A stretch of 64,000 nt of DNA from Gammaproteobacteria bacterium. Its GTDB lineage: Bacteria; Pseudomonadota; Gammaproteobacteria; Steroidobacterales; Steroidobacteraceae. The position numbers and the translations under genes are program-made. Numbering within the stretch: the first letter of the stretch is position 1; every line of letters begins with the position of its first letter. The stretch covers positions 1 through 64,000 of the forward strand of contig JANYLM010000024.1 of NCBI GenBank assembly GCA_025357835.1, read 5' to 3'. The notes under the pieces are model-generated. The model ran no database searches. It had not been told where the DNA came from and was given only the letters and a program-made list of their open reading frames with translations. This document shows positions 13,507 through 30,932 of the stretch, piece after piece.

Positions 13507-14046
13507 ATGCTCTCGACATCTGACTCCCGTACCGAGATATTCACCAAGCTCTTCGCTGAGAGCCGCGAAGCGTTGCACCGATATATCCGACGCTTCGTTG
13601 GGTCGAGCGAAACGGCGAAAGAAATCGTCCAGGAAGCATTTCTTCGGACCTACCGGGAACGCGAGTCAGTGACGACCTTAAGAGCTTTTCTTTTTTCGAC
13701 CGCGCGCAATCTTGCCGCAAACGAATACCGCCACCGACGAGTCGTGGAGAGGGATACTTTGGGGAATTTCGATAATTCCCGGGTGACACTCCAGTGTGAG
13801 TCGCTGGAGTCAGAGTTGCTCAGAGACGAACGGAGCCGGCTCATACAGGAGGCGATCGATCGTTTGCCCCGGCAATGCCGCGCGGCCTTTACCCTGCGGG
13901 TATTTCATGAGTGTTCCTACAAAGAGGTTGCGGACCGACTCGGAATCTCGGTCAAGACGGTGGAGAAACACATCGCGCGCGGTCTGCGCGAGACGCACAG
14001 CTATTTGAAAATACGCTATAGCGCGACGAGGCCGGACCATGGGTGA
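13507..14046 (+). CDS. ECF RNA polymerase sigma factor, FecI-like
   Basis: A 179-residue extracytoplasmic-function sigma factor. Region 2 (about 10-80) has SSETAKEIVQEAFLRTYRE for -10 recognition and core binding. Region 4 (about 115-170) has LPRQCRAAFTLRVFHECSYK then EVADRLGISVKTVEKHIARG, the helix-turn-helix for -35 contact. The arrangement and 'SVKTVEKHIARGL' are typical of the FecI group. The FecR gene overlaps its last codons and a signalling TonB-dependent receptor follows, so it should transcribe this receptor and possibly the genes after it when the receptor is occupied by ligand. Confidence 0.95.
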   Translation: MLSTSDSRTEIFTKLFAESREALHRYIRRFVGSSETAKEIVQEAFLRTYRERESVTTLRAFLFSTARNLAANEYRHRRVVERDTLGNFDNSRVTLQCESLESELLRDERSRLIQEAIDRLPRQCRAAFTLRVFHECSYKEVADRLGISVKTVEKHIARGLRETHSYLKIRYSATRPDHG

Positions 14047-15067
14047 CGTTCATAGGTTGCCGAGGGTCGATGACACGGAGCGTGAGGCTAGCGCGTGGCT
14101 TGCCCGCATGAACGCCGACGACGTGACTGTGGACGATGGCACTCGCCTTGAGGTGTGGCTGCGCGCTCATCCACGCAACGCTAAGGCATACGCGGAGCTT
14201 TCCGCCACCTGGCAGGAACTCTTGAACGTCGGTCCCCTCGTTCGGGCTGTCAATTTCGGCCAAGTGATGAACGCCGCCGCCGTGCCGCCTGCGCCGCGCC
14301 GACGCTGGACGACTATCGCGGTGGCTGCCAGTGTCGGGGCACTCGTTGTTGGCGTCGCGTGGAACCTGTACAAACAAAAGGAAGAGAGCCGCTTCCAAAC
14401 GGCGATCGGGGAGCAGGCCGCCGTGGCATTGCCCGACGGCTCCTCGTTCGATCTCAATACCAACAGTCGGGTACAGGTCGACTACAGTCGGCGCACTCGC
14501 GTCATTCGTCTTGAACGCGGCGAGGCCTATTTCAAAGTAGCACATGATACGGAACGGCCTTTTTGGGTGCACGCCGGCGACTATTGGGTCCGCGCGGTCG
14601 GAACGGCGTTCAACGTCTACATGAGGCCGACCGGGGTGGAAGTAACGGTGAGCGAGGGCACGGTCAATGTGGTCAACGCGACGGCGAATGAGTCCCCTCC
14701 ATCGGATGCGTCGATAACCAAGTCTGCTGCAGCCGTGACTGCCGGCGAGCAGGCCGACGCACACGGCCGCGCCGAGGTGATTCACGAGCTCAATTCGGTG
14801 CAGCTCAGCCGCCTGCTGGCCTGGAGAAAGAGCAGCCTCTATTTCCAGGATCAGCCGCTCGGTGATGTCGTCAATGAGCTGATGCGATACACCACCCTGC
14901 AGATCGATTTCGACGACGATGCGCTGCGCCGGCTGCCGGTAGGAGGTACGTTCAAGACGGGCCCTGACGGGGTGGAGGCGTTGTTGACGATGTTGCATGA
15001 CGGATTTGGCACGACCATCCGCAGAGATGGCGAGGGGCATGTTCACATCGAAGGCCCCGCCAAGTAG
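14039..15067 (+). CDS. FecR-type anti-sigma factor/inner-membrane signal transducer
   Basis: A 342-residue protein. The cytoplasmic N-terminal region (1-80, DDTEREASAWLARMNADDVT, with the FecR_N/DUF4880 helical domain) would hold the sigma factor. One membrane segment at about 85-105 (WTTIAVAASVGALVVGVAW) is followed by the periplasmic FecR domain (about 110-220: TAIGEQAAVALPDGSSFDLN, RGEAYFKVAHD, RPFWVHAGDYWVRAVGTAFN). A C-terminal STN-like segment, SSLYFQDQPLGDVVNELMRY, would contact the receptor's signalling domain. The ATG overlaps the sigma stop region by 8 bases, implying translational coupling and matched stoichiometry. Confidence 0.95.
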   Translation: MGDVHRLPRVDDTEREASAWLARMNADDVTVDDGTRLEVWLRAHPRNAKAYAELSATWQELLNVGPLVRAVNFGQVMNAAAVPPAPRRRWTTIAVAASVGALVVGVAWNLYKQKEESRFQTAIGEQAAVALPDGSSFDLNTNSRVQVDYSRRTRVIRLERGEAYFKVAHDTERPFWVHAGDYWVRAVGTAFNVYMRPTGVEVTVSEGTVNVVNATANESPPSDASITKSAAAVTAGEQADAHGRAEVIHELNSVQLSRLLAWRKSSLYFQDQPLGDVVNELMRYTTLQIDFDDDALRRLPVGGTFKTGPDGVEALLTMLHDGFGTTIRRDGEGHVHIEGPAK

Positions 15068-15088
15068 GGCTCAGATCAGCTCTGAGCC
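15068..15088 (+). terminator. Hairpin after FecR gene
   Basis: A perfect 8-bp stem (GGCTCAGA / TCTGAGCC) with a 5-base loop begins one base after the FecR stop codon, followed by a GC-rich CGGCCTGCGGCCG mini-hairpin. No T tract follows. It could attenuate readthrough from sigma/anti-sigma into the receptor, or protect the mRNA 3' end. Confidence 0.45.
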
Positions 15089-15225
15089 GGCCTGCGGCCG
15101 TAGCTCCTTAAATGATTCGACGACTTCGAGAAATCGAAGGGGGGTTTTTCGCCGCTCGCGGGTCGTAATACCAGACGGCTCTCTAAAGAGTCGCAGCCTT
15201 AGAACAATACACGGGGGGCGTTTCA

Positions 15226-18200
15226 TTGAAAACGAGCAACAGCTTGGTTCGGTTGGCGGTATTGCGGGCGCTGACATGCACATCGGGGCTGCTTCTGGCC
15301 ACGCCTGGTAGCGCGAGCGCCGATCCGGCGCGATTCGACATTGCGGCACAACCGCTGCCCAATGCACTCAAAAACTTTGCCGCACAGGCGAAGATGCAAC
15401 TTCTGTACCGATACGATACCGTAAGCCATTCGACGGCTAGTGCGGTGACCGGGCAGCTGGAAAAGCACGCCGCCCTGGAGCAATTGTTGCGAGGCACGGG
15501 ATTGGAGGCGGTATACAGCAACGACAATACCGCCACCATTCGCTTCATTTCCTCTGGAGAAAGAGCAGCCCCCGGCACTAAAGCGGCAGATGGCGATAGG
15601 CTGTTTCCGAGCAGTGCACCTCCGAAAACCTCCTCGGCGCAAGATGCAAATCCGGGATATATCCGGGTCGCTCAAGCAGGTTCTGACCTGCAGCCGGCCG
15701 CCGTGCCGAATAACGGCCTCGAGGAGATAACCGTGACGGGCCTGCGCCAGTCAATAATCAACTCCATGACCATCAAGCGTGACTCTCTGGGGATTGTCGA
15801 TGCCATCGCGCCCCAAGATATCGGTAAGCTGCCCGATGCCAATCTGGCCGAGTCATTGCAGCGCATAACCGGCGTGTCCATCGATCGCTCCGGCGGTGAA
15901 GGTGAGTTCGTCACCGTTCGCGGTTTTGGTCCGGAATTCAATACTGTCCTGCTCAACGGGCGGCAGATTGCCACGCCGACCGATCCCAGCCAGGCCAGCG
16001 GGCGCGCCTTTTCGTTTGACACGCTGGCGTCGGAACTGGTTTCCGGCGTCGAGGTGTACAAATCCTCCACGGCGCACCTTCAGTCCGGCGGGGTGGGCTC
16101 GACCATCAATATTAAGACTGCGAGGCCCTTCGACTATTCCGGATTCAAATTCGCAGGTTCTGCCGATGCCAATTATGAGGAAAATTCCAAAAAGGCCTCG
16201 CCGGACGGCTCATTTCTGCTCAGCGACAGATTTGCCGACGGAAACTTGGGTCTTTTGGCATCGGGCAGCTATCAGCACCGCAAGGACCGGCTAAATACTG
16301 TTGCAACAGACGGCTGGATCGTCAACCCCGCAGTTCCGGCTGCTGCGATCAACGGGGGGGCTGGGGTGATTACGCCGTCAAATCCCAACGGCAATTTATT
16401 CGTTCCGCAAGACTTCGGACCGAATGTGAATTTCGAGGATCGCGAGCGGATTGGGGGCACCTTGGTGCTGCAATACAAGGCCAGTGACGCTCTGACGATT
16501 ACCGCCGACACGCTGTATTCGCGATTCACCGACAAGTCCGACGATCGTTCGTACGGTCATTGGTTCACGCCATCCAACCTGACCAACGTTACTACCGACG
16601 CCCATGGAACAGTGATCGATATGACGCAGGGTGTTGGCCAGGCGTCCGACTTCCACGACAAGTCATACAGCAAAAAGACCGATACCATCGCGGGCGGCCT
16701 CAACGCAGACTGGAAGCTCGCCGATCGCATTACACTCAACTTGGACGGCAGCTTCTCGCATGCCAAGGAAGATCCAAACGGTGGCGCGGAGAGCCAACTC
16801 GCGTTGCTCGGGTTTCCCGGGCAGACGGTTCGCTTTCGATCGGATGGGGAGATCGTGCCCTATGTCACCGGTTTCATTCAGCCGACGAGTGGCACCAACG
16901 CCGGCGTAGTGGGTGGCACGCATCCCCTTTTCGAGCATGTCATGCTTCTTCGCGGCTATGGCGTCGACGACAAGGTGTATCAGTTTCGTGCCGACTTGGA
17001 CATCAAGGGCGACAATCCGAAGGAGGGATTGGTCGATTTGCGTTTGGGCGGTTACTTTTCTCACGATCAAAAGGACACGGCACTCTATTCGAATGATGGC
17101 CTGACGGGCTGCGCGACCTGCGGCTACACCATCGCCGCGCCAGCGAGTTTACCGATCGGCCTATTCGACGCCGGCAGCAACTTCCTGTCGGGAGTGAGTG
17201 GCGCGAATCGTACACCGGCCCAGTGGCTCACCTTCAATGGGCCGGCATTGTTCAATGCGATCACGCAAGAGCAAGGGGCAACTAAGCCCGGCTTTACGTT
17301 TGCTCCACCACTGCGGAACGATTCGTTGGTCACGGAGCGGGTCTTCGGCGGATATTTGGAAACCGTATTCGGCGGCAGCTTGCTCGATCGTCCATTCTCC
17401 ACTGTCGTGGGGGTGCGTGCCGAGAACACGCAATCGACGGTCAGCGGTCTGGCGACCCCGTTCATTGCACTGACCAAGCTGCTGACTGATGCCACACAAT
17501 ATGGCGTTACGACCGGTGGCACCGCCACGGTATCGGCCACAAACACCTATACGGATATTCTGCCCAACCTGTCGTTCAAGTGGGATTTGACGGACAACCT
17601 GATTGGGCGGTTTGCCGCTTCGCAAACGATGACGCGTCCGACTCTCGAGGAGCTTTCACCGGTCACGACACTGGTAACGCTGCGACCCGGTAATTTCGCG
17701 GCATCGAGCGGCACCGCCAACCTGAGCCCTTTCCGATCCAATAACCTCGATCTTTCCGTCGAATACTACTACGGCAACGGAAACTACGCCTCGGTCGGTG
17801 CGTTCTACAAGACCGTCAGCAACTTCATCGTTCTGAACCAAACGACCGGCACGGTGAAGAATTCGGTCGGCACCCCGCTGCTCGATCCAGCGACCGGATT
17901 GCCGGCCCAGTTCACTATCACTGCGCCTGCGAACGGGCCAAGCTCGGTGGTGACCGGCCTGGAAGCGGCGCTCCAGCAAGCATTCGGCGACACCGGCTTC
18001 GGGGCCCAGCTCAACGGTACGCTGGCGCATAGCGACAAGAAGCTGGACCCTACCAATCTGACCAACAAGTTCGCGCTGACTGGACTATCCAACTCGGCCA
18101 ACGCCGTGTTGTTCTATGACAAAGGGGTATTCGAGGCCCGTACCGCTCTGAACTGGCGCGATCACTTCTTGCAGTATCTGTCGCCGCCGCCGTTGAACGG

Positions 18201-18408
18201 CGCCGGTCAGGCGGTGACTCAGGTGCGTTCACGCTACCAGCTGGATGCGAGCGCCACCTACCACATCAATAAGAACTTTGGAATTTTCGTGGAAGGCGCG
18301 AATCTAACCAACCAATATCTTTTGAAGTACGCTTACTACGAGAACCAGTTTCTCTCCGCGGAAGATAGCGGACGCAGGTGGAAGATCGGCGTTCGCGGCG
18401 GGTTCTGA
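15226..18408 (+). CDS. TonB-dependent receptor with N-terminal signalling (STN) domain
   Basis: A 1060-residue outer-membrane receptor; TTG start with GGGGGG upstream. Signal peptide (to about residue 32), then an STN domain (about 35-105: FDIAAQPLPNALKNFAAQAK) of the FecA/FpvA type that touches FecR. A linker leads to a TonB-box-like EEITVTG, the plug (about 170-290, GGEGEFVTVRGFGPEFNTVL and the 'QSGGVGSTINIKT' end), and a 22-strand barrel ending ...RRWKIGVRGGF with the outer-membrane C-terminal Phe. The NGRQIATPTDPSQASGRAF segment is typical of the large Xanthomonas/Caulobacter-type receptors associated with glycan or other organic substrates rather than classical siderophores. The ligand is unknown. 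It is directly behind its sigma/anti-sigma pair. Confidence 0.93.
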   Translation: MKTSNSLVRLAVLRALTCTSGLLLATPGSASADPARFDIAAQPLPNALKNFAAQAKMQLLYRYDTVSHSTASAVTGQLEKHAALEQLLRGTGLEAVYSNDNTATIRFISSGERAAPGTKAADGDRLFPSSAPPKTSSAQDANPGYIRVAQAGSDLQPAAVPNNGLEEITVTGLRQSIINSMTIKRDSLGIVDAIAPQDIGKLPDANLAESLQRITGVSIDRSGGEGEFVTVRGFGPEFNTVLLNGRQIATPTDPSQASGRAFSFDTLASELVSGVEVYKSSTAHLQSGGVGSTINIKTARPFDYSGFKFAGSADANYEENSKKASPDGSFLLSDRFADGNLGLLASGSYQHRKDRLNTVATDGWIVNPAVPAAAINGGAGVITPSNPNGNLFVPQDFGPNVNFEDRERIGGTLVLQYKASDALTITADTLYSRFTDKSDDRSYGHWFTPSNLTNVTTDAHGTVIDMTQGVGQASDFHDKSYSKKTDTIAGGLNADWKLADRITLNLDGSFSHAKEDPNGGAESQLALLGFPGQTVRFRSDGEIVPYVTGFIQPTSGTNAGVVGGTHPLFEHVMLLRGYGVDDKVYQFRADLDIKGDNPKEGLVDLRLGGYFSHDQKDTALYSNDGLTGCATCGYTIAAPASLPIGLFDAGSNFLSGVSGANRTPAQWLTFNGPALFNAITQEQGATKPGFTFAPPLRNDSLVTERVFGGYLETVFGGSLLDRPFSTVVGVRAENTQSTVSGLATPFIALTKLLTDATQYGVTTGGTATVSATNTYTDILPNLSFKWDLTDNLIGRFAASQTMTRPTLEELSPVTTLVTLRPGNFAASSGTANLSPFRSNNLDLSVEYYYGNGNYASVGAFYKTVSNFIVLNQTTGTVKNSVGTPLLDPATGLPAQFTITAPANGPSSVVTGLEAALQQAFGDTGFGAQLNGTLAHSDKKLDPTNLTNKFALTGLSNSANAVLFYDKGVFEARTALNWRDHFLQYLSPPPLNGAGQAVTQVRSRYQLDASATYHINKNFGIFVEGANLTNQYLLKYAYYENQFLSAEDSGRRWKIGVRGGF

Positions 18409-18423
18409 TCTTAAGGACTAGCG

Positions 18424-18455
18424 TTCCGGGCGCGCGGTAACCCGCGCGTCCGGAA
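18424..18455 (+). terminator. Strong hairpin between receptor and halogenase
   Basis: A 14-bp stem (TTCCGGGCGCGCGG / CCGCGCGTCCGGAA, one G-T pair) with a TAAC loop lies 15 bases after the receptor stop. It is not followed by a T run in the forward direction, so it may be a processing or partial-termination structure that lowers expression of the downstream genes relative to the receptor. Confidence 0.55.
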
Positions 18456-18557
18456 AATTCCATCGACGTCCGCGGCTTGGCGCGGTATGTTCCTATTGTT
18501 GAGCATGTTTGTTCGCCGAATTGCAGCCGGCGACTATTTCGTTGTGGAAAATAGACC

Positions 18558-20111
18558 ATGGTGAACCCGGTTCGATCGATTTGCATAGTCGGCGGCGGCA
18601 CGGCGGGATGGCTTACGGCCGGCATCATTGCGGCACGCCACGCTTCCGAATCCGGCTGCGGCCTGCAAATTACATTGGTTGAGAGCGAGACCATCGGCAT
18701 CGTCGGCGTAGGCGAGGGCACCTGGCCGACGATGCGTACAACTTTAAAGAAGATGGGCATTTCGGAAACGGACTTTTTCCGCGAGTGCAATACCTCGTTC
18801 AAGCAGGGTGCGAAGTTCGCGCGGTGGGTTACCGGTGAAGAGTCCGATTTCTACTATCATCCGCTGGTGCTGCCCCAGGGCTTTCCGAGCCTCGATCTCG
18901 CACCCTTCTGGACGAGGTACTCGGATGGCGGTGGCGATGCCCGCTCGTTCTCCGATGCAGTATGCTTTCAGGAGGCGGTTTGCGAACTGGGCCTCGCACC
19001 CAAATTGATCACCTCGCCCGAATATGCCGGGGTCGCAAACTACGCATATCATCTGGACGCCGGCCGCTTCGCCCCCTTCATTCGCGATCATTGCCTCAAA
19101 AAGCTTGGCGTACGCCACATCGTCGATGAAGTTACCGAGGTCGTCAAAAACGACGCGGGGGACATCGATTACGTGGAAACCCGCAAGTCTGGCCGGCTTC
19201 GCGGCGACCTTTTTATCGACTGTTCTGGATTCCGGTCGTTATTGCTTGGGCAAACGATGGGCGTGCCCTTCGTCGATTGCAGCGATGTTCTTTTTATCGA
19301 TCGCGCGCTGGCGATGCAGGTGCCCTATGACGACGAACAAAGCGCCATTATCCCGCATACGGTGTCGACCGCGCAGAAGCATGGCTGGATTTGGGACATC
19401 GGGCTGCAAAGCCGGCGCGGAGTAGGCTACGTCTTTTCGAGCAACCATACTACCTCGGATGCCGCCCTTGCGGAACTGCGCGCGTATGTCGGGGAAGCGC
19501 ATCGCGACTTGCAGCCCAGGGAGATAAAAATTGTATCGGGGCATCGTCAGACATTTTGGAAGGGAAATTGCGTTGCGGTTGGCCTCGCGGGGGGGTTTCT
19601 GGAGCCTCTCGAAGCGTCCGCTCTGGTGCTGATAGAACTATCTGCCGATATGATCAGCACCATGATGCCGGCAACGCGCGAGACGATGGATATTGTTGCC
19701 AAGCGCTTCAACGAAACGACTCAATATCGCTGGGATCGGATTATCGATTTTCTAAAGCTCCACTATATTCTCAGTAAACGCACGGATTCGAAATTCTGGA
19801 TCGACAATCGCCATCCCGATAGCATTCCGCAGAGTCTGAAGGAGCAGATGGAGCTTTGGCGCTATAGGGCGCCGGGCGACCAGGATTTCACCAGCAACAA
19901 TGAGATGTTTCCTGCCGCGAGCTATCAGTATGTGCTGTTTGGCATGGGCTTTAGAATGGATACACACGTGTCGCCGCTGGGTCGCGACATTGCCAGCGCC
20001 CAGCGGGCGTTCGCACAGAACGAAGCGCTTAAAGTGAAATGGACGAAAACACTCCCAAAGAATCGCGACTTGATCAACAAGATCAAACAGCTTGGGCTTC
20101 AGAAGATCTAG
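18558..20111 (+). CDS. Flavin-dependent halogenase (tryptophan-halogenase family)
   Basis: A 517-residue FADH2-dependent halogenase. The N-terminal Rossmann motif GGGTAGW is at 12-18. The GVGEGTWPTM segment precedes Lys82 in NTSFKQGAKF, the position of the catalytic lysine (Lys79 of PrnA) that guides hypohalous acid. GGFLEPLEASAL carries the conserved Glu region. The diagnostic WxWxIP motif appears as WIWDIG, so Pro is Gly; from memory this variant occurs in receptor-linked halogenases such as those of Xanthomonas and BrvH, which favour bromide and free indoles. No flavin reductase is adjacent. It starts a run with SapC and DUF6445 behind a TonB-dependent receptor. The natural substrate is unknown. 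Confidence 0.92.
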   Translation: MVNPVRSICIVGGGTAGWLTAGIIAARHASESGCGLQITLVESETIGIVGVGEGTWPTMRTTLKKMGISETDFFRECNTSFKQGAKFARWVTGEESDFYYHPLVLPQGFPSLDLAPFWTRYSDGGGDARSFSDAVCFQEAVCELGLAPKLITSPEYAGVANYAYHLDAGRFAPFIRDHCLKKLGVRHIVDEVTEVVKNDAGDIDYVETRKSGRLRGDLFIDCSGFRSLLLGQTMGVPFVDCSDVLFIDRALAMQVPYDDEQSAIIPHTVSTAQKHGWIWDIGLQSRRGVGYVFSSNHTTSDAALAELRAYVGEAHRDLQPREIKIVSGHRQTFWKGNCVAVGLAGGFLEPLEASALVLIELSADMISTMMPATRETMDIVAKRFNETTQYRWDRIIDFLKLHYILSKRTDSKFWIDNRHPDSIPQSLKEQMELWRYRAPGDQDFTSNNEMFPAASYQYVLFGMGFRMDTHVSPLGRDIASAQRAFAQNEALKVKWTKTLPKNRDLINKIKQLGLQKI

Positions 20112-20137
20112 GAATCGATATCGAAGATAGGTGAATA

Positions 20138-20881
20138 ATGCGTCTCGTCGAACTGTCGCGCAGCGAACACGCTGGATTGCGGATCCGCGATGATCTGGTT
20201 GAAGCATCTGCGGCTAGTCAACACTTGGTACCGATCGTCGTGAGCGAATTTCGCAAAGCCGCGATCCACTACCCGATCGTTTTTGCAAAAAATCCTGAAA
20301 CGGGGCGCTTCGCTCCTTATGTCTTGAACGGGTTGGGCGTCGAAGAGAATTTGTTCTGGTCAGGGACTGAGATGGACGTCGCTTATGTGCCGTTGAACGT
20401 GCGGCGGCAGCCATTCTATGTGGGAACGAACGATGCGCCGGATGCTCCCGCCACAAACGTGCTCTGCATCGACCTCGACAGCCCGTGTTTAGACGGTTCG
20501 GGCGGGAAAACGCTAGTCAATCCCGACGGGAGCGATTCTTCGTATCTCAAGGAGATACTGTCCGTTTTGGGCGAATTGGTCGCAGGAAAAGACACGACCG
20601 AGAGCTTTATTGCAACCGTGCTCGCGTTGGAGCTGCTTGCTCCCATCGTGCTCGACATAGTGCTTGATGATGGCACACCGCTGCAAATCGAAGGACTATA
20701 CGGTCTTGATGAGGAAAAATTCAGGCAGCTCGATGAAGAGCGAATCGCCACGCTGTGGAAGGCCGGCTGCCTTGACCTAATTTATAGCGTATTGATTGCC
20801 AGTGGACACATATTCAATCTCATTCGGCTGAAGAACCAGCGCATTGCCCTGAGTCGTGCGTGGCATAGTAACCCGACCTAA
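20138..20881 (+). CDS. SapC family protein
   Basis: A 247-residue soluble protein matching SapC. The N-terminal signature VPIVVSEFRKAAIHYPIVF with NPETGRFAPYVLNGL, 'ENLFW', and 'AYVPLNVRRQPFYV' are typical. SapC was named from a Campylobacter S-layer locus, but the proteobacterial members are almost always next to TonB-dependent receptors and halogenase-like genes, and their biochemical role is unknown. There is no signal peptide, so it is cytoplasmic. 26 bases separate it from the halogenase and 2 bases from the next ORF's earliest start, so the three are probably co-transcribed. A binding or recruitment role for the imported substrate is inference only. Confidence 0.88.
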   Translation: MRLVELSRSEHAGLRIRDDLVEASAASQHLVPIVVSEFRKAAIHYPIVFAKNPETGRFAPYVLNGLGVEENLFWSGTEMDVAYVPLNVRRQPFYVGTNDAPDAPATNVLCIDLDSPCLDGSGGKTLVNPDGSDSSYLKEILSVLGELVAGKDTTESFIATVLALELLAPIVLDIVLDDGTPLQIEGLYGLDEEKFRQLDEERIATLWKAGCLDLIYSVLIASGHIFNLIRLKNQRIALSRAWHSNPT

Positions 20882-20901
20882 CATTGTGCTTGGGGCTATT
20901 G

Positions 20902-21675
20902 ATGAGTGATGAATCACGCGATGCGGCGCTATTCGCATTTAACAACGATGCGGAAGTGAAGCTGGTACATGTTGGGCGGCGGGGAATTCGCGTGAGCAGG
21001 ATCGACAACGTCCTGCACGACCCCGAGGGCGTTGCCGCCCTGGGTTTCGCTCAATCCTACTCCAAGGACCCCAGCAATCTTTACCCTGGTATGCGGGCCC
21101 CCATTCCTAAGAGCTTCTCGACCGCGTTCCGTGCCTGGCTCACGCCGATCCTCCGCCGATACGGCGTGTTGGAGGGTAATCAGGCTATATATCACGATGA
21201 AAGTTTTTTCTCTGTCGTTACCACTGCGAGCACGGACCTGCTGCCAATCCAGGCTATCCCCCACTTTGATTCAGCGGACCCTAATTTGTATGCAGCAGTG
21301 ATTTATTTGTGCGATACGAGGTTTTCCGGGACGACGTTCTATAGGCATCGAAAAACCGGATATGAAGAAATAACGGCGGAAAATCACAATAATTATAATA
21401 TCTCTCTCGATAACGATTTGCGAATCCATGGGGTTCCGAAGAAAGAGTATGTCAATGGAGATAGTTTGCTGTTTGAGGCTATTTTCACGAATGAATTGAA
21501 GTTCAATAGCGCAATAGTCTATCCAAGTAGAATTCTTCACGCGGCAGATATAGATAGACAGTTCAATCCGCCGAGAGATAAGAGCGAATGGCGCCTCACT
21601 GTGACGGCATTGCTACAATCGTCTTGGGTTACAAACACCAATACAGAAGTCGCGGCGGACGACTACAAACGCTGA
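20902..21675 (+). CDS. DUF6445 protein, possible Fe(II)/2OG oxygenase fold
   Basis: A 257-residue cytoplasmic protein starting MSDESRDAALF; an upstream TTG is less likely. It belongs to DUF6445, a family linked to receptor/SapC/halogenase clusters. In it I see a candidate facial triad: His121 and Asp123 in IPHFDSADPN, distal His213 in YPSRILHAADI, and a basic Arg231 in SEWRLTV, plus SGTTFYRHRKTG between them. The order HxD...H...R and the spacing fit prolyl-hydroxylase-like Fe(II)/2-oxoglutarate oxygenases. The family identity is fairly secure; the oxygenase idea is my inference from motif spacing. The last 100 residues are notably richer in Asn, Ile and Tyr than its neighbours. Confidence 0.8.
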   Translation: MSDESRDAALFAFNNDAEVKLVHVGRRGIRVSRIDNVLHDPEGVAALGFAQSYSKDPSNLYPGMRAPIPKSFSTAFRAWLTPILRRYGVLEGNQAIYHDESFFSVVTTASTDLLPIQAIPHFDSADPNLYAAVIYLCDTRFSGTTFYRHRKTGYEEITAENHNNYNISLDNDLRIHGVPKKEYVNGDSLLFEAIFTNELKFNSAIVYPSRILHAADIDRQFNPPRDKSEWRLTVTALLQSSWVTNTNTEVAADDYKR

Positions 21676-28625: not shown

Positions 28626-30932
28626 TTAGAACTTGCACTGCAGCGACAGCCCCGCGGTGCGCGGCTGGTTGGTGAACATGCGCGTACGAGTGGTCGCGGA
28701 GTAGTTGTCGGAAAGGTAGTGCGAAAGCGCCGCTTGCTTGTCGAATACATTGCTCACGAATAGATTCGCTTCCCAGGCGCCGCGGGTGATGCCTGAGCGT
28801 AGATCGAGCAAAGCGTATGCCCGCTGGAAGGTCGCCGGATCGGTGCGCTGAAAGTCTGGATAGGACACCCCGACAAATTGTGCGTCGGCGCGCACGAAAC
28901 CGTCCGCGCCAGAAAAGAGAGTGAACAAGTATTTGGCGTTGGCATTGGCGTTCCATTGCGGCACGTTCTCCAATTGCTGGCCCTTTACGCCGCCCAGCGA
29001 AGGCGCATCCGCGGCGAGTACCGCCTTGGCATAGCCCACGCCGCCGCCGAGCTGAATGTGGGCGCCGATATTGCCCTGGATTTCAACTTCACCGCCATGG
29101 ACGGTGGCTGCCCCTGCGTTCTCGGTGATTTGATAGGAACATGATAGGGTTTTGCCCTGCTGCACGCCGTTCCACTTGATGTAGTACGCCGCCGCATTCA
29201 CCGTGAGAGCGCCGTCCAGCCAGCGCGTCTTGGCTCCGCCCTCGTAGTTCCACAAGCTGTCTGGTCCATACGGGCCGTAATCCTGGCCACAGCCTTTTTT
29301 AGAGAGATTGCTGGTGTTCACGCCGCCCGGCCGCACGCCCTTCGAAGCGAGCAGGTAGTACAATTGTTCTTGGGTGGCCTGATAGGAGATCTCGGCCTTG
29401 GGGTTGAAGCCAGTGTTCTTCGCCGAGCCTTCCGATAGCGTCGGACCACCGTTGCTCCAGCCATCTTCGTAGCGGACCGCGGTGTACTGCATGTCGTACC
29501 AGCGCAGACCGGCGGTCGCCTTCCATTGGCTGGTGATCGCATAGTTAAGCTCGGCGAACACGGCCGACTGCTTGGGAGAATAGTCGCCGTGTTGGGAATA
29601 GTTGACGTCGCTCAGCGGCAGGTAGGGCGCAGAGCTGGGTGAATTGCTGAACAGCGCCGCATAATTCGGGGTCAGGTAGTTCACATAGTAGTGGCGATTG
29701 GCGTTGTTGAAAAAGGCCCCGGTCACCCCGCTCAAGGCCCAGCCCTCGGGATTGAACGCAACGCGTAGTTCCTCGGTCAGCTCTCGCGTGGTGACGATGG
29801 GTGCGTACACATTCGGCACGAATTGGCCCTGCGGAATGGTGTTCTCGAGCGCCTCGGTTTCATCGTCCGGGTTTGTTTCCTGGCGGCGCATGTAGGAGGT
29901 GGTGGAAAGCACGCTGCCCCAACCGAGATCGTAGTTCATGGTGAGGTTGCTGAGTACGAAGCGATCCGAATAGGCCTCCGACACATTGAAAGGTCGGGCC
30001 TGGATCAGGGGACCGCTCGAATTACCGGCGGGGATGTCGTAATTCGGCAAGCCGCCCATCTGCAGATCCTGCAGCCAGACCGATGGGGTGATCGAAAAGG
30101 CATCCGTGACTGCGACTTTCAGCATGGTCCGCAAGCTGTACAGCTTTTCCGAGTTGACGTTGCGGACGATGGAACTGGGGCCGGCCGGCGCAACGGGGTA
30201 GGGAAGTTGCGCACCGGGGCTGGGCGCCCAGACACCGACGTAGCGATCGATAAAGCCACTGAAGTCCTTGTAAGTGCCCACGATGCGCAACGCCACCCGA
30301 TCCTCGATTAATGGCATGTTGTACATGGCATCCAGCCGAGCGTTGCCGCCGCCATGTTCCGTGTAAGAGCCCTCGATCTTGACCGCGCCCTGCTGCTTGG
30401 TCAGGTTCGGCTGATTCGTGATCAGGCGCACCGTGCCGCCCATGGAGCTTGCTCCATACAGAGTGCCCTGCGGCCCGCGCAGAATCTCGATGCGAGATAA
30501 GTCGAAAAGATCCGGGTCTATGCCCGCGGTAGCGCCGTCGCCGCCGGAGGGCAGGATGGGCGTATCGTCGATGTACGTGCCGGTGGTAGGCGCGTTGCCG
30601 CCCACGGAGGCGATACCGCGGATCGAGAAACTGCTCTGACCCGGTCCCGCGGAGTTTAGGGTCACTCCGGGGATGCGCGCCGCCAGCGAGGAGAAGTCTT
30701 GGACGCCGGTTTCAGCCAACGTTTCCGAGGTAAAGGCGACGACGCTTAAAGGAACATTTTGCAGCCTCTCGCTGCGCTTTTCGGCCGTGACGATAATGTC
30801 CTCGAGGACTCCCGACTGCCCTGCGGTTACCGCCGCTTGTTGGGCATGCACAGCCTGGGTACCGGCCAAAATCCACAGGACCGCTACGACGCCGGCAACC
30901 TTAAGCCGATTTGCCCCCAGTTGAGTCCGCAT
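28626..30932 (-). CDS. TonB-dependent receptor
   Basis: A 768-residue outer-membrane receptor without a signalling domain. Signal peptide to about residue 31 (HAQQAA). A TonB-box-like DIIVTAEKRSERLQNVPLSV, then the plug (about 50-170) with PGVTLNSAGPGQSSFSIRGI and the 'RIEILRGPQGTLYGASSMGG' end. The barrel ends GLSLQCKF with the C-terminal Phe. The 'IVTAEKRxExLQxVPxSV' start is typical of the large family in sphingomonads and gammaproteobacteria that imports diverse organic compounds as well as iron complexes; the ligand is unknown. GGAAG precedes the ATG, and an AT-rich segment with TATAAT lies about 30 bases upstream. The diheme cytochrome gene follows after 166 bases. Confidence 0.93.
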   Translation of the reverse strand: MRTQLGANRLKVAGVVAVLWILAGTQAVHAQQAAVTAGQSGVLEDIIVTAEKRSERLQNVPLSVVAFTSETLAETGVQDFSSLAARIPGVTLNSAGPGQSSFSIRGIASVGGNAPTTGTYIDDTPILPSGGDGATAGIDPDLFDLSRIEILRGPQGTLYGASSMGGTVRLITNQPNLTKQQGAVKIEGSYTEHGGGNARLDAMYNMPLIEDRVALRIVGTYKDFSGFIDRYVGVWAPSPGAQLPYPVAPAGPSSIVRNVNSEKLYSLRTMLKVAVTDAFSITPSVWLQDLQMGGLPNYDIPAGNSSGPLIQARPFNVSEAYSDRFVLSNLTMNYDLGWGSVLSTTSYMRRQETNPDDETEALENTIPQGQFVPNVYAPIVTTRELTEELRVAFNPEGWALSGVTGAFFNNANRHYYVNYLTPNYAALFSNSPSSAPYLPLSDVNYSQHGDYSPKQSAVFAELNYAITSQWKATAGLRWYDMQYTAVRYEDGWSNGGPTLSEGSAKNTGFNPKAEISYQATQEQLYYLLASKGVRPGGVNTSNLSKKGCGQDYGPYGPDSLWNYEGGAKTRWLDGALTVNAAAYYIKWNGVQQGKTLSCSYQITENAGAATVHGGEVEIQGNIGAHIQLGGGVGYAKAVLAADAPSLGGVKGQQLENVPQWNANANAKYLFTLFSGADGFVRADAQFVGVSYPDFQRTDPATFQRAYALLDLRSGITRGAWEANLFVSNVFDKQAALSHYLSDNYSATTRTRMFTNQPRTAGLSLQCKF

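Follow-up and report, generated by a model that had tools for sequence, protein, structure and literature searches.

The DNA analysed here (the window) comprises positions 1 to 64,000 of contig JANYLM010000024.1 (assembly GCA_025357835.1), from a gammaproteobacterium of the family Steroidobacteraceae. Between positions 13507 and 21675 it holds a module of six genes, each an open reading frame on the forward strand: an extracytoplasmic function (ECF) sigma factor of the FecI type (13507..14046), a FecR-type sigma regulator (14039..15067), a TonB-dependent receptor of the TIGR01782 type with an STN domain and a TTG start (15226..18408), a homologue of flavin-dependent halogenases (18558..20111), a SapC family protein (PF07277; 20138..20881) and a DUF6445 protein, a predicted Fe(II)/2-oxoglutarate (2OG) oxygenase, again with a TTG start (20884..21675). 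A first-pass annotation had described this arrangement, and the reading frames, strand, families and 8-bp overlap of the sigma factor and FecR genes are all as it said. It had also spoken of short gaps; this is accurate for the last three genes, with 26 bp between halogenase and SapC and 2 bp between SapC and DUF6445, but less so for receptor and halogenase, which are 149 bp apart with a hairpin in between (FecR and receptor are separated by 158 bp). The best explanation of the locus, in our view, is that of a FecI/FecR/STN-receptor surface-signalling system in which the receptor has its own group of modifying proteins, which probably reside in the cytoplasm.

The sigma factor matches Pfam Sigma70_r2 (42.6 bits) and r4_2 (66.8 bits); its best NCBIfam model is TIGR02985, at 124 bits slightly below the cut-off, and it is ~30% identical to the sigma factors of related modules in Microbulbifer and Cellvibrio. 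The FecR protein matches Pfam FecR (76.7 bits) as well as DUF4880, carries W20, W40 and W58 in its N-terminal region, and resembles PDB entry 6ovk in its periplasmic part (E=8e-13). Plug, TonB barrel and STN domains were found by Pfam in the receptor, which scores 632.6 bits against TIGR01782. The STN score itself, 25.1 bits, falls just short of the 28.4-bit cut-off; residues 20-109, however, align with the signalling domain of FpvA (E=2e-10), so that the domain is assigned as STN by homology. As the genes of the sigma factor, of FecR and of a receptor with an STN domain follow one another, the surface-signalling module is complete, as had been proposed. Over 99% of its length the receptor is 41-44% identical to those of the same module in loci L069, L078 and L096, which by eye also have an STN-like N-terminus. 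The Microbulbifer receptors (L069:4096-7332 and L096:4167-7403) have, after the STN domain, another stretch that resembles a signal peptide; these proteins look as if an STN domain had been fused ahead of a complete receptor precursor.

The halogenase homologue (Trp_halogenase, 425 bits) is closest among PDB structures to 2pyx (555 bits). It retains the GxGxxG motif for binding flavin adenine dinucleotide (FAD), here GGGTAGW, and the active-site Lys and Glu, in SFKQGAKF and EPLE, respectively. Instead of WxWxIP it reads GWIWDIG, as does its subclade. A motif survey and a tree both indicate that changes of the WxWDIG/EPLEASA type mark the subclade that holds 2PYX and the enzymes of FecR-type modules; EPLEASA or something similar occurs in most of its members, including 2PYX. 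Three loci of our survey contain a further halogenase paralogue between two halogenases (L088:7100-8482, L090:7100-8482 and L094:7049-8482). It lacks the FAD, Lys and Glu motifs, while a Trp_halogenase match remains in the two that were scanned (L088 and L090), and it is possibly a non-catalytic partner.

The DUF6445 protein (202 bits against the family profile) was suspected from its HxD...H...R residues to be an Fe(II)/2OG oxygenase. These residues are real and nearly invariant: H127, D129, H219 and R237 are identical throughout an 11-sequence alignment and are kept in 102, 102, 102 and 103 of 103 homologues. No solved structure in the PDB was matched significantly by sequence. The AlphaFold2 model, with a predicted local distance difference test (pLDDT) of 89.5, is a double-stranded beta-helix, and its top PDB fold matches in Foldseek belong to the Fe(II)/2OG oxygenases, with probabilities reaching 1.00 and with the protein hydroxylases OGFOD1, PHD2 and Tpa1 among the nearest. 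In a relative that adjoins a halogenase (L028:9046-10476), DUF6445 lies behind a fused 2OG-FeII_Oxy_5 domain, and the DUF6445 part itself scores 49 bits against 2OG-FeII_Oxy_3 (PF13640; cut-off 27). The conserved motif, the predicted fold and the score of this fused relative make it very probable that DUF6445 belongs to the Fe(II)/2OG oxygenases, and the absence of such a fold, which was to speak against the proposal, is not what the prediction gave. The name DUF6445 was not found in the literature searched, which is weak evidence since most subscription journals lie outside its coverage. DUF6445 also forms part of a longer reading frame in L025, L027 and L028, the first of which has FG-GAP/UnbV and TonB-receptor genes as well; in L022, L031, L033 and L035 it adjoins TPR-sulfotransferases and a different type of TonB receptor.

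SapC (190 bits) was modelled with high confidence (pLDDT 93.1), but neither the model (best E 0.47) nor the sequence matched anything significantly in the PDB. With no carrier-like fold and, by eye, no N-terminal signal sequence, the suggestion that SapC acts as a carrier was rejected; our guess is that it may be an adaptor. The name of PF07277 goes back to an S-layer protein, an exported type of protein, and it is by eye that the window SapC shows no export signal at its N-terminus.

To see where the gene set recurs, genome contigs were scanned with a DUF6445 alignment; this gave 80 loci, of which the 64 of at least 15 kb were counted. A halogenase is present in 42 of these, a receptor of this kind in 35, SapC in 17 and FecR in 3. 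The exact order sigma-FecR-receptor-halogenase-SapC-DUF6445 was seen in Microbulbifer hainanensis (L069), Cellvibrio (L078) and Microbulbifer rhizosphaerae (L096). Among the fetched loci, the best matches of the first five module proteins are in these three modules or in a similar Cellvibrio fragment (L119), with ~43% identity for the receptor and 62% for the halogenase; the window DUF6445 is the exception, its best matches lying in loci other than the sister modules.

A more general linkage is seen between halogenase and receptor. Across 59 genomes of the order there are 71 halogenase genes, and 50 of them have a TIGR01782 receptor (E ≤ 1e-80) no more than 6 kb away, compared to ~1.2 expected from gene density; conversely, a halogenase accompanies 31 of 81 such receptors. 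The source genome has three full-length halogenases, each adjoining a TIGR01782 receptor, the two outside the module in loci with LacI, GH1 or GH3 genes. Elsewhere, halogenase-linked loci contain amylases together with GH97 in Alphaproteobacteria, and in Rheinheimera GH3 plus an esterase; of the sister modules, L069 is near a sugar transporter and L078 near an amylase and a cellulase. What stays constant beside the halogenase is the receptor, rather than one nutrient. One receptor gene of the source genome, next to its second SapC-linked halogenase (contig C108, L149:9965-13056), is broken in the assembly by a single TGA. No literature joining "tryptophan halogenase" and "SapC" was found, again weak evidence given the limited coverage of subscription journals. 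Papers mentioning "tryptophan halogenase" together with "TonB-dependent receptor" (on iron limitation in Pseudomonas fluorescens and on a deep-ocean metatranscriptome) appeared unrelated from their titles and abstracts.

Receptors linked to WxWDIG halogenases share a Trp at one loop position, which in the window is W446 (codon 16561..16563, forward strand). The loop is probably extracellular, judging by eye from its strand-turn-strand pattern. Overlapping 30-residue stretches were scanned in a first set of receptors, made up of an order-wide sample and the DUF6445 context loci, and the W446 stretch ranked first (88% vs 26%, p=1.3e-6, uncorrected for the number of stretches scanned). In a second set, from genomes drawn across the phylum and with the stretch fixed beforehand, the association of the Trp with the halogenase was seen again (80% vs 32%, p=4.8e-5), the stretch ranking third. 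Among receptor representatives linked to SapC, 34 of 35 carry W[FYLMV] at this position, against 10 of 111 others; Trp itself occupies it in 97% of these 35, compared to 9% of receptors that have no halogenase and no SapC. The SapC-linked receptors have a mean pairwise identity of 37%, and the loop neighbours of W446 are mostly 14-54% conserved. When all halogenase-linked receptors were pooled, no Trp reached 70% and a Trp, Tyr or His specific to the pool was given up as a candidate; only Tyr278 differed (74% vs 23%). The loop of W364 (340-369), second-ranked in the first set, did not differ in the second and was likewise dropped.

Based on this, the mechanism that we favour is that binding of a ligand to the receptor would lead FecR to free or activate the sigma factor, so that more receptor, and perhaps more of the enzymes, is made. 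The enzymes would then modify an aromatic side chain, for which Trp446 in the surface loop is the best candidate; they would act on the precursor of the receptor prior to its export, possibly with SapC as an adaptor. Modification of the receptor itself by the halogenase, SapC and DUF6445 set is our leading explanation, to which we give somewhat less than even confidence. In its favour are the linkage of halogenase and receptor type across loci with differing glycan genes, the recurring six-gene order, the conserved loop Trp, the presence of DUF6445 beside another receptor type with TPR-sulfotransferases and its fusion to 2OG-FeII_Oxy_5, the protein hydroxylases among its nearest folds, and the properties of the flavin enzymes SrpI, BrvH and Xcc4156 given below. 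A broader version, in which halogenase, SapC, Cupin_8 and DUF6445 oxygenases (elsewhere sulfotransferases) tailor a whole class of TonB-dependent receptors at a conserved surface-loop Trp, we offer with more reserve.

Several observations weigh against receptor modification. The enzymes would need an unfolded precursor in the cytoplasm. In closest-sister pairs, halogenase and Trp gave 4 concordant, 1 discordant and 9 tied cases (14 pairs), and SapC and the motif 2 concordant, 0 discordant and 4 tied (6 pairs), neither being significant. Common descent may thus account for much of the Trp association, and the simple p-values make it look stronger than it is; since neither test that takes relatedness into account reached significance, we infer the receptor as target rather than conclude it. 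Furthermore, the receptors of L343, L354 and L242 carry the Trp with no halogenase nearby, 12 of 45 halogenase-linked, SapC-free receptors lack it, and stretches 630-659 and 970-999 also differed between groups in the second sample. The fold matches of DUF6445 have modest TM-scores (<0.5), and the missing WxWxIP of the halogenase, with EPLEASA in place of EPLEST, makes its activity uncertain. Finally, ligand binding alone could be the role of an aromatic residue in the loop. That last thought belongs to another explanation, which we consider rather unlikely, namely that the loop Trp serves to bind ligand and was passed on within one receptor clade, and that the enzymes have as their target some other protein, or a ribosomal peptide, made under the same control. 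The sister-pair results would agree with it, and flavin enzymes with suitable properties exist: SrpI is a brominase acting on Trp within a peptide (PMC10858898), while BrvH and Xcc4156 have open active sites and reject free Trp, and larger substrates or peptides have been proposed for them, their native substrates being unknown (PMC5945002, PMC7336383). However, a precursor gene would hardly fit into gaps as small as those within the module (2-158 bp), and it is the receptor that constantly accompanies the halogenase.

The first-pass annotation had envisaged that the two oxidative enzymes may act in sequence on the compound brought in by the receptor. Spelled out, the receptor would import an aromatic compound on which the halogenase and the DUF6445 oxygenase act in turn inside the cell. 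The operon-like order and the short gaps among the three enzyme genes would suit such a pathway, and as no glycoside hydrolase is found among the window genes scanned, the ligand could differ from that of carbohydrate loci. We nevertheless regard it as unlikely: because the halogenase follows the receptor across differing nutrients, the imported compound is a less likely substrate, and the same halogenase, SapC and DUF6445 families occur in starch and beta-glucoside loci; flavin halogenases are not known to act on sugars. In many linked loci the halogenase has no DUF6445 nearby. The module itself lacks a gene for an importer of the inner membrane; that of an NCS1 permease comes only after a further 226 bp. 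Lower still we place the view that the WxWDIG-subclade protein is a flavin monooxygenase, or inactive, and that the locus hydroxylates its target with no halogenation. The change from P to G in WxWxIP and the replacement of EPLEST by an EPLEASA-like sequence, both seen in 2PYX and most other members of the subclade, and the paralogue of L088, L090 and L094 that lacks the FAD, Lys and Glu motifs speak for it, whereas the retained Lys, Glu and GxGxxG speak for a working enzyme of the halogenase type. With WIWDIG in place of WxWxIP, halogenation by the window enzyme is putative.

The expression of the enzymes adds a further point. A stable GC-rich hairpin with no T-run (18424..18455, forward strand) lies between the receptor and halogenase genes; the folded piece 18409-18475 has -32.9 kcal/mol and a z of -4.0. 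In Cellvibrio L078 a hairpin with a T-run is found at the same place. On account of these two hairpins, the enzyme genes may be expressed below the level of the receptor, and since the hairpin separates them from the receptor gene, their control by the sigma factor is presumptive; overexpression of the sigma factor might raise the receptor only. Sigma-70-type promoters were not in excess over shuffled sequences, and by eye no shared ECF promoter was evident upstream of the four FecR-type receptor genes.

The NCS1 permease was excluded from the module, as were a PIN-domain protein and an amidase encoded upstream on the opposite strand. No carbohydrate-active enzyme or sugar regulator was found among the scanned window neighbours of the module, and PADLOC gave no match, so that a defence system was dropped as a reading. 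About 7 kb from the module the window contains a second TonB-dependent receptor of another type (28626-30932, reverse strand), next to a protein with a chitobiase C-terminal domain and a GGDEF/EAL protein.

If receptor modification is correct, it would represent a new kind of outer-membrane protein modification, in which a transporter of that membrane has a system of its own for modifying an aromatic residue. As halogenase genes follow one receptor family across nutrients and one candidate residue can be named, the question of the native substrates of BrvH, Xcc4156 and their relatives becomes accessible to direct mass spectrometry. Should the receptor not be the target, DUF6445 is still placed among the 2OG oxygenases, and a conserved six-gene module is still defined.

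It is instructive to compare the locus with known systems. DUF6445 shares its predicted fold and the HxD...H...R residues with oxygenases of the OGFOD1-PHD2 type and the 2OG-FeII_Oxy families, but has no significant sequence match to any solved structure. BrvH and Xcc4156 belong to the same Pfam family as the window halogenase, and enzymes of their motif type also adjoin TIGR01782 receptors; the window enzyme, however, is in a separate subclade (WxWDIG, EPLEASA) with 2PYX as its nearest solved structure, and BrvH, from the residues quoted in the paper describing it, would fall into the other main subclade. SrpI is similar in that its flavin chemistry is directed at a Trp in a product of the ribosome, but it uses a proteusin core peptide, guided by a leader, with neither receptor nor SapC taking part. 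Many carbohydrate-utilisation loci of the Xanthomonas type (PMC1790865) contain TonB-dependent receptors of this family type; near the window module, in contrast, no glycoside hydrolase was found, and FecI/FecR stand in place of a LacI regulator. The closest likeness in layout is to FecI/FecR/FecA and PupI/PupR/PupB signalling, in which a sigma factor, a FecR protein whose N-terminal region contains Trp, and an STN-receptor come in the same order. Unlike in those systems, the window receptor belongs to the TIGR01782 family, which is common in carbohydrate loci, and it is followed by the block of halogenase, SapC and DUF6445.

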